From NCBI GenBank assembly GCA_031272945.1, contig JAISST010000111.1, forward strand, positions 1-43,969: a stretch of DNA of 43,969 nt. Reading direction: 5' to 3'. Positions 1-6,645 of this stretch are shown piece by piece. The first letter of the stretch is position 1; every line of letters starts with the position of its first letter. This stretch comes from Fusobacteriaceae bacterium (GTDB lineage Bacteria > Fusobacteriota > Fusobacteriia > Fusobacteriales > Fusobacteriaceae). The notes beneath the pieces were generated by a model. That model was not told where the DNA came from and made no database searches. It was given only the letters and a program-made list of their open reading frames with translations. The translations under genes were made by a program, and so were the position numbers.

Positions 1-229
1 CAAGTTTCGCGAATGTCCCCGCTTCCTTAGAAACATCGGAGCGGGTAATCTGTATATTGGTTACACCCCTTGGAATACGCATACAGAAGACGTATCCCGG
101 GATGAGCTGACAACTAAGCAGCTAAAGCGTAATTGTTTTCGTCATTTAAACGAGTTTTTGGTCTTTCGCGGCAACCACGCCGACCTGCTGTCTATAACCT
201 GCTAACCCCGTCGAAACCTTGACATCCCC
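1..229 (-). ncRNA. ssrA: tmRNA (transfer-messenger RNA), 5' portion; 3' end beyond the window start
   Basis: Minus strand begins GGGGATGTCAAGGTTTCGACGGGGTTAG, the conserved tmRNA 5' end. A tag reading frame ends AAT GAC GAA AAC AAT TAC GCT TTA GCT GCT TAG (NDENNYALAA*) at 146..114. It lies directly downstream of smpB. Confidence 0.93.
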
Positions 230-276: not shown

Positions 277-717
277 CTAGCGGATTTTAATATTTCGCTC
301 CTCATCCCGGCGGGCGTCTTTTTTGGCGATGGCTTCCCGCTTGTCGTAGGTTTTCTTCCCCTTGGCGACGGCAATTTCCAACTTGACCCTGCCCTTGGAG
401 AGGTGGACGTCCAGAGGAACGATGGTAAATCCCTGCTGGCTCACTTTCTCATGGATTTTCCGGATCTCCTTCTTGTGCATGAGGAGTTTTCTCGGGCGTT
501 TTTCTTCCACATTGTATACGCTGCCGAATTTCCAGTGCACGATGGTCATGCCGAGAATGAAGAGCTCCCCCTGCGTAACCCGCAGGTAGGATTCCTTTAT
601 GCTCACGTGCCCCGCTTTGACCGATTTGACCTCGGAACCCACAAGGGCGATTCCCGCCTCAAATTTTTCCTCTATGAAATAATCGAAATAAGCCTTTTTA
701 TTCTTCGCTACGATCAT
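277..717 (-). CDS. smpB: SsrA-binding protein SmpB
   Basis: 146 aa; NKKAYFDYFIEEKFEAGIALVGSEVKSVKAGHVSIKESY...KKTYDKREAIAKKDARRD is characteristic of SmpB. SD GGGAGGAGG precedes the ATG. Confidence 0.97.
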   Translation of the reverse strand: MIVAKNKKAYFDYFIEEKFEAGIALVGSEVKSVKAGHVSIKESYLRVTQGELFILGMTIVHWKFGSVYNVEEKRPRKLLMHKKEIRKIHEKVSQQGFTIVPLDVHLSKGRVKLEIAVAKGKKTYDKREAIAKKDARRDEERNIKIR

Positions 718-2358: not shown

Positions 2359-2407
2359 AAGGCTTATCCAACTGTACAGAAAATTCTTATAGATCAAGGT
2401 GGCAAGC

Positions 2408-3226
2408 ATGAAAAAGATATTATTGGCGGCGTCTTTGATTCTTTTGTTGGTCTCCTGCGGGGAGGGAAACGGCCCTCTTGTGGAAAAGATCGTGGGCGAC
2501 GAGCGGGTTGTTTATGATCTGAATACCGGAAAACTGTATACGGGAAAGGTCCGGCGGGTGGCGACGAACCGGGACGGGAATAAGTTTGTCCATATTGAAA
2601 GCAACTATAAGGCCGGAAAATTGCACGGGGATTATACGGAATATTACGGGAACGGAAAAATCAGGCGCAAAGGCAAGCTGCGCAACGGAAACGCCGACGG
2701 ATACTGGATGACTTACAATGAGCGGGGGGGCCTCAAGCACGTTGTGGAATACCAGGACGGGAAGAAAGTCAACTTGCAGAAAGAGTATTACGAAAATGAG
2801 AATTTGCGGCTCGAACAATATTACTACCGAGGTCTTCTGGACGGCAGGACAAAATATTATTATCCCAACGGAACATTGCAGGAGGAGGGAGACTACAAAG
2901 ACAATAAAAAAACGGGCGTTTGGCTGCAATATTACATGAACGGGGCCTTGAAAATCAAAGGGAACTTTCAGGACGGATTTCAGAACGGTCTGTGGGAGGA
3001 ATACTATCCCGATGGAAAGCCCAGGATTGTCCTTCATTTTAAAATGGACAAAATTGACGGGGAGATCAAAAAATATTTCTCCAATGGCGAATTGGCCGTT
3101 TCAGGGGAATTCCGGGACAGCTTCCCCCGGGGCTCCTGGAAAATTTTCAACGAGAAGGGCCAACTGATGAAAGAAGAGGACTGGGAGAAGACCCTCACGG
3201 CGGTCATGTCCGCAGAATCCGATTAG
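2408..3226 (+). CDS. Lipoprotein with MORN-type (YwqK-like) repeats
   Basis: Signal peptide and lipobox MKKILLAASLILLLVSCGEG; several ~23-aa repeats of the type YYxNGxxxxxGxxxxGxxxGxW. Confidence 0.8.
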   Translation: MKKILLAASLILLLVSCGEGNGPLVEKIVGDERVVYDLNTGKLYTGKVRRVATNRDGNKFVHIESNYKAGKLHGDYTEYYGNGKIRRKGKLRNGNADGYWMTYNERGGLKHVVEYQDGKKVNLQKEYYENENLRLEQYYYRGLLDGRTKYYYPNGTLQEEGDYKDNKKTGVWLQYYMNGALKIKGNFQDGFQNGLWEEYYPDGKPRIVLHFKMDKIDGEIKKYFSNGELAVSGEFRDSFPRGSWKIFNEKGQLMKEEDWEKTLTAVMSAESD

Positions 3227-3264
3227 GCCGCGGACCTGTTCGTCCGCATTGTCGGCTTTTTTTC
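3227..3264 (+). terminator. Intrinsic terminator of the lipoprotein gene
   Basis: gccGCGGACctgttcGTCCGCattgtcggc followed by TTTTTTT, between convergent genes. Confidence 0.7.
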
Positions 3265-4090
3265 AGCAGTTTCCCGTATATACATAGCGCAAATATTTCC
3301 TGGCGATCTCCGCCTGCCGGTAGACAGTTTGAACGGGAGTCGGCCGGGCGTCCGCCATCTTGTAGCAAGGGAAAAAACGGCTCACATGAAGGGGAATTTC
3401 CTCATGGACCGAGCGGATCCACCGAGCCATATTTTCCATATCCTCATCGGTATCGTTCATTCTCGGTACGACCAGTTTGGTCAGTTCGATGTGGGCGTGC
3501 GGTCGGGACAGCGTAATGGTATTTTTTACGGTTTCCAAGGTTCCGCCGACGCTTTTGTAAAATTCCTCCGTAAAGCCTTTGAGGTCAATATTCATGGCGT
3601 CCACAAAGGGCAGTAGCTCCCGCAGCGCCGGTTCATTGACGGAGCCGTTTGTCACAAGTACGGTTTTCAGATGGTAATTCTTGGCGAGGCGGGCGCAGTC
3701 CTTTATGTATTCCGGGCAGATCAGCGGTTCGTTATAAGTGAAGGCGATTCCTATATTTCCTGACGGGATGAGCCGCACCGCTTCCGCGGTCAACTCCTCC
3801 GGGCCGACATACCGCCAAGGCGCGTGATGGCCGTCCGCCTGGGCGATCGTATGGTTCTGGCAGAAGGGGCAGCGAAAGTTGCAGCCGTAACTTCCGACCG
3901 AAAGAATCCTGTTTCCGGGATAGAAATGGTACAGCGGTTTTTTTTCAACAGGATCAAGGGCAATGGAGGTCAGATGTCCGTAGTTTTCGGAGACGATCCG
4001 GCCTTTTTCATTTTTCCGGCCCCTGCAAAATCCCGTCTGCCCTTCTTCCAACCGACAGGACTTCGGACAGAGGGCGCATACGGCAGTCAT
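3263..4090 (-). CDS. amrS: AmmeMemoRadiSam system radical SAM enzyme
   Basis: MTAVCALCPKSCRLEEGQTGFC...DPVEKKPLYHFYPGNRILSVGSYGCNFRCPFCQNHTIAQ; CxxxCxxC motif CNFRCPFC. The chosen start gives an ATGA overlap with the upstream gene. The ORF track extends it to 4126. Confidence 0.9.
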   Translation of the reverse strand: MTAVCALCPKSCRLEEGQTGFCRGRKNEKGRIVSENYGHLTSIALDPVEKKPLYHFYPGNRILSVGSYGCNFRCPFCQNHTIAQADGHHAPWRYVGPEELTAEAVRLIPSGNIGIAFTYNEPLICPEYIKDCARLAKNYHLKTVLVTNGSVNEPALRELLPFVDAMNIDLKGFTEEFYKSVGGTLETVKNTITLSRPHAHIELTKLVVPRMNDTDEDMENMARWIRSVHEEIPLHVSRFFPCYKMADARPTPVQTVYRQAEIARKYLRYVYTGNC

Positions 4091-5472
4091 TTGTGACGGA
4101 CAACCTCGAAACGCTCGAGACTGCACGCTTCTTCCGGTTGTATTCCCGCTTTCTGTTTCGCGATGGCGATCTGGGTATCCACGTCGTCGACGCCTTCCAG
4201 ATTGGGAAGGAGCAGTCCCCTTCTGTCTCCTCTCGTGACAATAACGCCGTAGCGGCGGACATCCAGCTTCTCCTTTCCGGCGATGGGTTCCGTTTCACCC
4301 AATACGTCGACGCTATAGATCAGGCTGTCCAGTTCCTGCTCCCGGACGGGCTCAAAACGCGGGTCATTGGCTCCGGCAGAGACCGCGTTGCTCAAGATTT
4401 CCGAGGCAATGGAATCCCGGACGGGTCCGATGGTCCCGATGCAGCCTCTGAGTCTGCCGTTTTTCTTGATGGAAACAAAAGTTCCCGCTCTTTTTCCGGT
4501 CATTTCCGCAGGCAGATCTTCGGGCAGGGGCGCCATTTTCCCCGTTTTTACCCAGGTTTCGAGGCTGAGGCGCGCGAGGCTCACGTAGGGATCTTCGCTC
4601 TTTCTGGCGGTTTCCGCTTTTTTTCGTTCCAGTTCCTCCGCTTTATCGTCAAACCGCCGGGACGGGTCGGCGCCCGTCGGAATGAAGGACGCGACGCCAT
4701 ATCCCACGCCGAAAGGCCCTTCATAGGAAAGAAGTTCGGAGGTCACGGCCAGCTCATCCAGAAAGCCCGCCAAGATCTGGAACGCCCTCAATCCGCACTC
4801 GGCGGCTTTTTCACAGAACGCTTCGGGGAAGGTGAGGAATTTCAAAAAATCCCCGTCGGCCATGGTTTCTGTGACCCGGCGGTCAAATTCCGGCCCCTCG
4901 GCGGCAAAGCCATAGGGACCGTCCTCTTTGAGCTTGTGGGAAAGATCCCCGCTGGCGATCAGGACGGTCTTCCGGTTGATTAAAAGGGAAGTGGCTGCAA
5001 TGAGCTTTCCGAAACGGTAATGTTCAATGGGGGACAAACCGGACAACCCGACCCGGATCAACTGATAATCTTTGTACTGTTGATTGACAAAATCCAGAGG
5101 AACCATGGTCGCGTAATCGAGCCGGGGTTCTCTCTCTCCCAGAGAGCCTGCGCGGATGCCCCTGTTCTGCGCCAAAAGAGTCAGCGCGTCGATAAAGGCT
5201 TTATCGTAATATACGGTCATTTCATAGTCGTAAACGCCGAATTGACGCAAATCTCCGCTGGCCTTTCCGCCGGGGGAAATGTGGATGTAATCCGAATAGG
5301 CCGTGGCGTGCGGCGATATGAGAACGATGGTCTCCGGTTGCAACAGAGCGATCCGCTTTGCCACTTCATGAAAGCCGTCAATGGTCTTTTGTATTTTCTT
5401 TTCTTCGCCCTTTCCGATCCGGGGCAGGATCAAAGGGGGATGCGGTACGATAAACGCGCCCGAAACTGACAT
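4087..5472 (-). CDS. AmmeMemoRadiSam system protein: Memo-like (AmrB) and AMMECR1-like (AmrA) domains fused
   Basis: N-terminal Memo/LigB-like domain (MSVSGAFIVPHPPLILPRIGKG, VLISPHATAYSDYIHI, LIASGDLSHKL); C-terminal AMMECR1 domain with the LRGCIG motif (4452-4435) and DPRFEPV. SD GGGAGGTTTCC before the ATG at 5472. Confidence 0.9.
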   Translation of the reverse strand: MSVSGAFIVPHPPLILPRIGKGEEKKIQKTIDGFHEVAKRIALLQPETIVLISPHATAYSDYIHISPGGKASGDLRQFGVYDYEMTVYYDKAFIDALTLLAQNRGIRAGSLGEREPRLDYATMVPLDFVNQQYKDYQLIRVGLSGLSPIEHYRFGKLIAATSLLINRKTVLIASGDLSHKLKEDGPYGFAAEGPEFDRRVTETMADGDFLKFLTFPEAFCEKAAECGLRAFQILAGFLDELAVTSELLSYEGPFGVGYGVASFIPTGADPSRRFDDKAEELERKKAETARKSEDPYVSLARLSLETWVKTGKMAPLPEDLPAEMTGKRAGTFVSIKKNGRLRGCIGTIGPVRDSIASEILSNAVSAGANDPRFEPVREQELDSLIYSVDVLGETEPIAGKEKLDVRRYGVIVTRGDRRGLLLPNLEGVDDVDTQIAIAKQKAGIQPEEACSLERFEVVRHK

Positions 5473-5510
5473 GGAAACCTCCCGTTTTACTTTTGAAAGC
5501 TGAGGATATG

Positions 5511-6269
5511 TTATTTCTTTATGAAAATCGTGTGGATACAAGCCAAGAGTTCCCGCAAATAGGCGGGAGGATAGAGATACCATACGAGGGGCGCTCCGTA
5601 TCTCGCGGCCTTGAGTCCGGCTTTTTTTGCGAGAAAATCAGCCCGATACATATGGTAGTCCGAGGTGACATAGGCAACTGCGCAATCTTCCCCGAAAAAC
5701 TGATCGAGGATCTCTTTGGAATAAAGAAAATTCTCGGCGGTGCTGCGGGCGCGGTCTTCCACAAAAATCCTGCTTTCTCCGATCCCGCGTTCCACCAGAT
5801 ACAGCCGCATGGCTGTCGCTTCGGAAATCGTCTCATCTTCGCCCTTGCCGCCGGAGACGATCACGGAAGCCGTCGGATTTTTTTCGAGATAAATCACCGC
5901 CGTGTCGAGGCGGCTCTTGAGATTGCGGGACGGTTTCTCCCCCCGCAGGCCCGCCCCCAGCACAATGAGGGCGTCCTCCCGGAATGTGACCGTATCCCGT
6001 TTTCCGTAGACGAATAAAAACAGCATAGCGCAGAAGGCGAGAAAGCTGAGCGCCACGATGAAAAAACGAATCGGGACAGGGAGACGGACCTTGATTTTCC
6101 CGTAGACCACGAGCAACAGCCCCAATATGATCATCAGAACATAGCCTATATTGAAATTGGAATTGAGTTGAATGATCACCGCCCAGATAATGAGCAGGAT
6201 TCCGGAATAGAACGAAAACCGCCCCCCGGATTTGTTTCGATACCGATACATAATATCCTCGCCTTTCAT
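5511..6269 (-). CDS. YdcF/ElyC-like DUF218 family membrane protein
   Basis: N-terminal TM segments, then DALIVLGAGLRGEKPSRNLKSRLDTAVIYLEKNPTASVIVSGGKGEDETISEATAMRLYLVERGI...TSDYHMYRADFLAKKAG. The true start may be the internal MYRYRN. Confidence 0.87.
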   Translation of the reverse strand: MKGEDIMYRYRNKSGGRFSFYSGILLIIWAVIIQLNSNFNIGYVLMIILGLLLVVYGKIKVRLPVPIRFFIVALSFLAFCAMLFLFVYGKRDTVTFREDALIVLGAGLRGEKPSRNLKSRLDTAVIYLEKNPTASVIVSGGKGEDETISEATAMRLYLVERGIGESRIFVEDRARSTAENFLYSKEILDQFFGEDCAVAYVTSDYHMYRADFLAKKAGLKAARYGAPLVWYLYPPAYLRELLACIHTIFIKK

Positions 6270-6304
6270 TAGTTATATGAGTACAACCGCTTCGGTTATA
6301 TTCA

Positions 6305-6333
6305 ATTATATCGGATTTTTCTCTTTATGTAAA
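6305..6333 (-). promoter_or_regulatory. Strong predicted promoter for the DUF218/AmmeMemoRadiSam operon
   Basis: Minus strand TTTACA - 17 nt - TATAAT. Confidence 0.65.
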
Positions 6334-6426
6334 TATTTTTTAAATAATTAAGAAAAAAAATCCTGTTTTTTGGGTCAAAATATATTTAATATATAATAGT
6401 GCGTTTTATCATTTAAAAATTATATT

Positions 6427-6454: not shown

Positions 6455-6469
6455 AAGTTACAATAAGAT

Positions 6470-6645
6470 AACAGACTGAGGTGCGATTGTCAAGAGTAGC
6501 CATGGGAAGTCCGGACCGGATGAGGAAACTGGGGAAAGGGACAATTGCCGAAATTTCAGAACAGGTTCCGGTTTTGGGATTGGGGGTGCGGACAAGATCC
6601 GTATCACTGTCATTGAGATTACTCAATGTTGCGCTTTCTGTGGTG
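6470..6645 (+). ncRNA. Lysine riboswitch (L box)
   Basis: Conserved core GAGGTGCGATTGTCAAGAGTAGCC...CTGGGGAAAGGGACAATTGCCGAA...GGTTTTGGGATTGG...ATCACTGTCATTGAGATTACTCAATGTTGCGC; P1 ACAGA/TCTGT and P5 CATTGAG/CTCAATG pairings. It precedes an aspartokinase gene. Confidence 0.92.

Follow-up and report, generated by a model that had tools for sequence, protein, structure and literature searches.

A LigB-type domain fused to AMMECR1 takes the place of Memo in an AmmeMemoRadiSam-type locus of a Fusobacteriaceae bacterium

Results

Gene organization and promoter of the locus

The window, meaning the whole stretch of 43,969 nucleotides that was analysed (Fusobacteriaceae bacterium, assembly GCA_031272945.1, contig JAISST010000111.1), carries on its minus strand three open reading frames that encode a DUF218 protein, a single-chain protein with a LigB-type and an AMMECR1 domain, and a radical SAM enzyme (Table 1). 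The ATG of the radical SAM gene and the TGA of the fusion gene overlap by 4 nt as ATGA (4090..4087). These three genes, the promoter TTTACA-17-TATAAT, the ATGA overlap and the motifs quoted in the initial annotation are all present in the sequence. Seven promoter-like sites were counted in the region, compared to 3.1 +/- 1.5 in shuffled sequences. TTTACA-17-TATAAT is more than a chance match, because a sister species of the same genus (G001) has retained both hexamers with the 17-nt spacing between them.

Several further features lie near these genes or at the edge of the window. A lysine riboswitch (RF00168, 88.4 bits, 6468-6644 (+)) precedes aspartokinase and lysine-pathway genes, and it shares one intergenic region with the divergent promoter of the DUF218-fusion-radical SAM operon. 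A gene for a MORN_2-repeat protein (2399-3226 (+)) is convergent with the radical SAM gene, and a tmRNA truncated at the window edge (1-229 (-)) adjoins an SmpB-like gene (277-717 (-)).

Table 1. Features of the locus, with positions in the window
Feature	Position	Strand	Evidence or remarks
DUF218 protein, 246 aa	5511..6251	(-)	PF02698 102.5 bits; 38 nt upstream of the fusion gene, co-oriented
LigB-type + AMMECR1 single-chain protein, 461 aa	4087..5472	(-)	Pfam and NCBIfam matches, AlphaFold2 model
LigB-type domain, residues 6-260	4693..5457	(-)	PF02900 129.6 bits; H11, H55, D176, H179, E225-C226-G227
AMMECR1 domain with LRGCIG loop, residues 297-458	4099..4584	(-)	PF01871 142.1 bits, TIGR04335 123.4 bits
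Radical SAM enzyme AmmeMemoSam_rS, 275 aa	3263..4090	(-)	TIGR04337 263.4 bits, cut-off 220
Extra N-terminal Cys4 motif (C5, C8, C12, C22)	4025..4078	(-)	Invariant in 22/22 aligned relatives, both system types
CNFRCPFC, CX3CX2C radical SAM cluster motif (C70, C74, C77)	3860..3883	(-)	Invariant in 22/22 aligned relatives
Sigma-70-type promoter TTTACA-17-TATAAT, upstream of the DUF218 gene	6305..6333	(-)	11/12 consensus positions
GGGAGG, probable ribosome-binding site of the fusion gene	5478..5483	(-)	Seen in sequence

The N-terminal domain of the fusion is LigB-type, not Pfam Memo

The initial annotation described a single-chain fusion of a Memo-like and an AMMECR1-like part. The fusion itself is real, with one domain matched by PF02900 and the other by PF01871. 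"Memo-like" held at the level of the LigB-Memo superfamily, but not as a family name: PF01875 (Memo) gave no match in the window protein at E 0.001, and Pfam Memo was thus ruled out for the N-terminal domain in favor of PF02900 (LigB). Nor was PF01875 found anywhere in the source genome, a draft assembly of 92.6% completeness. Of the three TIGRFAM families that the annotation had named for searching, TIGR04335 (AMMECR1-family protein A) was matched above its curated cut-off of 99 and TIGR04337 also exceeded its own, but TIGR04336 (AmmeMemoSam_B) reached 21.4 bits and stayed below its cut-off of 26. Because relatives of the same architecture pass either TIGR04336 (the close relatives L016 and L057, at 32.1 and 30.6 bits) or PF01875 (L129 and L136), the N-terminal domain is, as judged by profile scores, intermediate between LigB and Memo. 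The HpaD equivalog scored 45.7 on the fusion, versus a cut-off of 315.95.

The AlphaFold2 model of the fusion (mean pLDDT 91.7, pTM 0.84) was matched by Foldseek to TK2203, 3,4-dihydroxyphenylacetate (DHPA) dioxygenase, aminophenol dioxygenase and Memo, with a probability of 1.00 against the dioxygenases; the AMMECR1 structures 1zq7 and 1vaj were matched as well. The conserved motifs start at residues 9 (VPHPP), 53 (SPH), 174 (SGDLSH) and 341 (LRGCIG). H11, H55 and E225 align with H13, H62 and E251 of aminophenol dioxygenase (3vsg/3vsh chain B), which are the iron ligands of that enzyme (PMC11081632). Across 110 long-form sequences, H55, D176, H179, C226 and RGCIG are invariant (110/110), and the position of E225 is occupied by Glu in 103. 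In three of the 110, the Memo-type fusions of Chloroflexota, this position is Met and a Cys is aligned in the C226 column; among the 107 LigB-type members, E225 is replaced by Gln or Val in four, while C226 shows no variation. The iron ligands of Memo are H49, H81 and C244 (PMC11081632), and the LigB-type fusions therefore hold two candidate third ligands side by side. A profile-profile alignment of the fusion with Memo covered residues 43-206 only and ended short of E225/C226.

The radical SAM partner resembles PFL-activating enzyme in fold

In addition to TIGR04337, the radical SAM protein was matched by PF04055. Its model (pLDDT 93.1) is closest in fold to PFL-activating enzyme (3cb8; E 4.1e-14, TM 0.78 normalised to the target), and a D-x-K motif common to that enzyme is invariant in the radical SAM relatives. 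Activase equivalogs were not reached by the protein: PFLA scored 60 versus 231.75 bits, and the others were far below their cut-offs.

The fusion and its partner are common among anaerobes

One scan recovered full-length relatives of the fusion, at 53-62% identity, from 80 other loci, mostly in Lachnospiraceae but also in Flexilinea, Eubacterium, Selenomonadaceae and others. Among 196 sampled Clostridia genomes, AMMECR1 was present in 80, and 75 of the 82 matches lay in open frames of at least 434 aa; the fusion was present by HMM in 29 of 30 loci fetched from this sample. AMMECR1 was found in 49 of 151 Chloroflexota genomes, with 17 in long frames, and in 14 of 98 Fusobacteriota genomes, where the long form occurred only in the three genomes of the window's genus. 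AMMECR1 has been described as a leading marker of anaerobes, being present in 50.66% of anaerobes versus 3.38% of aerobes (PMC13386939). The pairing of the fusion with the radical SAM gene is common among anaerobes, and the layout is not a rare one.

In an AMMECR1 tree, the window's genus was placed among the fusions of Clostridia and Flexilinea, outside the Memo-type clade of Fusobacteriota (support 97), with moderate support of 80-93 at the inner forks. Given this placement, horizontal acquisition of the LigB-AMMECR1 fusion by the genus is likely. The AMMECR1 proteins of four Chloroflexota loci (L150, L151, L152 and L155) are very divergent and sit on a long branch, and neither a Memo nor a LigB domain was seen there.

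Memo and LigB-type domains interchange beside AMMECR1 and the radical SAM enzyme

Comparison of related loci showed that the LigB-type and Memo domains occupy one slot beside AMMECR1 and the radical SAM enzyme, and do so interchangeably. Sister Fusobacteriota genera encode AMMECR1, the radical SAM enzyme and a true Memo as separate genes, and G011, from another genus of the same Fusobacteriota family, encodes a radical SAM-Memo fusion of 618 aa (L012:4335-6191 (-)). Two Chloroflexota loci (L153:435-1739 (-) and L154:649-1989 (+)) encode true Memo-AMMECR1 fusions in the same domain order as LigB-AMMECR1, and in a few Clostridia loci the LigB and AMMECR1 parts are split into neighbouring frames. 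Because different lineages join different pairs of the three families, these gene fusions would favor a single physical complex.

The DUF218 gene is a genus-local neighbour

The radical SAM gene lies within 400 nt of the fusion gene in 61 of the 80 loci, several of which are cut by contig ends. When the neighbours of the fusion loci were clustered (all but 8 of the 80 loci were indexed), radical SAM was the sole recurrent family, at 57 loci; no other family reached more than 8. The same clustering, over the same indexed loci, revealed no conserved fourth gene of any kind.

The initial annotation had also proposed the DUF218 protein as a membrane partner of the system, and the cross-genome tabulation that it called for revealed no enrichment. 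In the window and in G001, the DUF218 gene is directly upstream of the fusion gene and co-oriented, with 36-38 nt between them, and in this genus the two are probably co-transcribed. In G002, of the same genus, DUF218 is absent from the locus and a divergent DUF374 gene lies upstream instead; the only DUF218 match of that genome is on another contig. A DUF218 HMM found the family within +/-8 kb at one of the 80 other fusion loci (L092), compared to a chance expectation of about 0.6 loci, calculated from about 1.5 DUF218 genes per 3.4 Mb. On these neighbourhood counts (two of three genomes in the genus, one of 80 loci elsewhere), DUF218 was rejected as a component of the system; it is a genus-local neighbour and not a working part.

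By hydropathy, the DUF218 protein has three predicted N-terminal membrane segments ahead of its domain, and no such segments were detected by the same measure in the fusion and radical SAM proteins. Positive charges precede the first and follow the second segment, and the DUF218 domain should therefore face outward, away from the radical SAM enzyme. SanA and ElyC, in which the domain is likewise described as facing outward, act in envelope synthesis (PMC12176290); the ElyC equivalog (PRK10494) scored 29.1 versus 205 bits on the window protein.

Discussion

Proposed function and alternatives

The best explanation of the locus, to which we assign a probability of roughly 0.85, is a two-gene, three-domain core of the AmmeMemoRadiSam type, with a LigB-type domain in Memo's place and DUF218 outside the system. 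There is about an even chance that the LigB-type, AMMECR1 and radical SAM domains form one cytosolic complex. We favor a cytosolic radical SAM pathway in which the metal domain and AMMECR1 would act on one substrate, with an order of steps that we infer. The radical SAM enzyme would generate a 5'-deoxyadenosyl radical and activate a substrate held by the RGCIG face of AMMECR1, and the H/H/E(-C) metal site of the LigB-type domain would carry out the following or the preceding step, probably without O2 as a routine co-substrate. This combination of radical activation at the RGCIG face with a metal-site step is put forward tentatively, as a possible course of the reaction. O2 is improbable as a routine co-substrate because the carriers of AMMECR1 are mostly anaerobes, although a site with all the dioxygenase-type ligands would also allow O2 chemistry where oxygen is present in traces. 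None of the substrates so far tried with MEMO1 has revealed dioxygenase activity (PMC11081632), and so the superfamily offers no activity from which to extrapolate.

If the LigB-type domain were instead an ordinary O2-dependent extradiol dioxygenase, the unit would degrade or sense aromatics or oxygen. The similarity of its fold to those of 3,4-dihydroxyphenylacetate and aminophenol dioxygenases and the conservation of the H/H/E ligand residues and of the SGDLSH histidine speak for such an enzyme; however, AMMECR1 is concentrated in anaerobes, the HpaD score is far below its equivalog cut-off, E225 is replaced in some LigB-type members while C226 never varies, and related systems have Memo where this one has the LigB-type domain. 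Altogether, an ordinary dioxygenase is improbable. Somewhat less improbable, but still unlikely, is a system that modifies nucleotide bases or isoprenoid lipids. Modifications of this kind were reportedly suggested for Memo contexts by Burroughs, Aravind and colleagues in J Biol Chem in 2019. The 2019 work is the reference that a later paper of the Burroughs-Aravind group gives for "Memo-Ammecr1 systems" (PMC7159879), but no recurrent nucleotide or isoprenoid gene was seen beside the fusion loci examined.

A true fourth component that ties the chemistry to the cell envelope is a very improbable role for the DUF218 membrane protein. Its co-orientation with the fusion gene across a short gap, the one conserved promoter before both, and the properties of its relatives (the envelope functions of SanA and ElyC, and S-adenosylmethionine binding by the E. 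coli DUF218 protein YdcF; PMC12176290) would fit that role, but the gene is not at the G002 locus, its frequency elsewhere is close to that expected by chance, and charge and hydropathy would place its domain outside the cytoplasm, apart from the radical SAM enzyme. Equally speculative, and a long shot among the mechanisms considered, is a PFL-activase-like radical SAM enzyme that installs a radical on AMMECR1's own invariant RGCIG loop, with the Glu/Cys metal site completing a non-oxidative reaction; if true, such a loop radical would make LigB-AMMECR1 a new radical enzyme of anaerobes.

The three-domain core merits attention since the AMMECR1/Memo/radical SAM set occurs widely in anaerobes and includes two families with human homologues. 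The interchange of Memo and LigB-type domains and the varied fusion orders make it possible to test directly whether a complex forms, which metal is bound and whether the domains can replace one another, and a single-chain LigB-AMMECR1 protein with a short radical SAM partner is a handy construct for such tests.

Comparison with known systems

In the literature searched, AmmeMemoRadiSam received passing mentions only. Several known protein families share parts of the locus. With the glycyl-radical activases, including PFL-activating enzyme, the radical SAM protein shares its closest solved fold, CX3CX2C and D-x-K; it differs in falling below all of their cut-offs, in its extra N-terminal Cys4 motif and in having no adjoining glycyl-radical enzyme gene. 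The class III extradiol dioxygenases (LigB, DesB, aminophenol 1,6-dioxygenase and HpaD) have the same fold, H/H/E ligand positions and active-site His as the fusion; however, the fusion adds AMMECR1 and an invariant Cys directly after the Glu, and it scores far below the equivalog cut-offs. MEMO1 and the PF01875 family are alike in superfamily fold, in the slot beside AMMECR1 and the radical SAM enzyme and in the Cys-Gly motif, but PF01875 has no match in the window's genome and the ligand Glu is present in the window protein.

The locus is also like AmmeMemoRadiSam itself, in that proteins A and rS exceed their curated cut-offs, their genes are adjacent and overlapping, and the three domain families occur as a unit. 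In the window, A and B share one chain, the B part being a LigB-type domain with a TIGR04336 score short of the cut-off, and the radical SAM enzyme lacks the C-terminal Cys-rich (CxxC...CxxC) tail of most aligned three-gene forms from Fusobacteriota. The locus is a real and ordinary member of the AmmeMemoRadiSam-type system, with a LigB-type domain in Memo's place.
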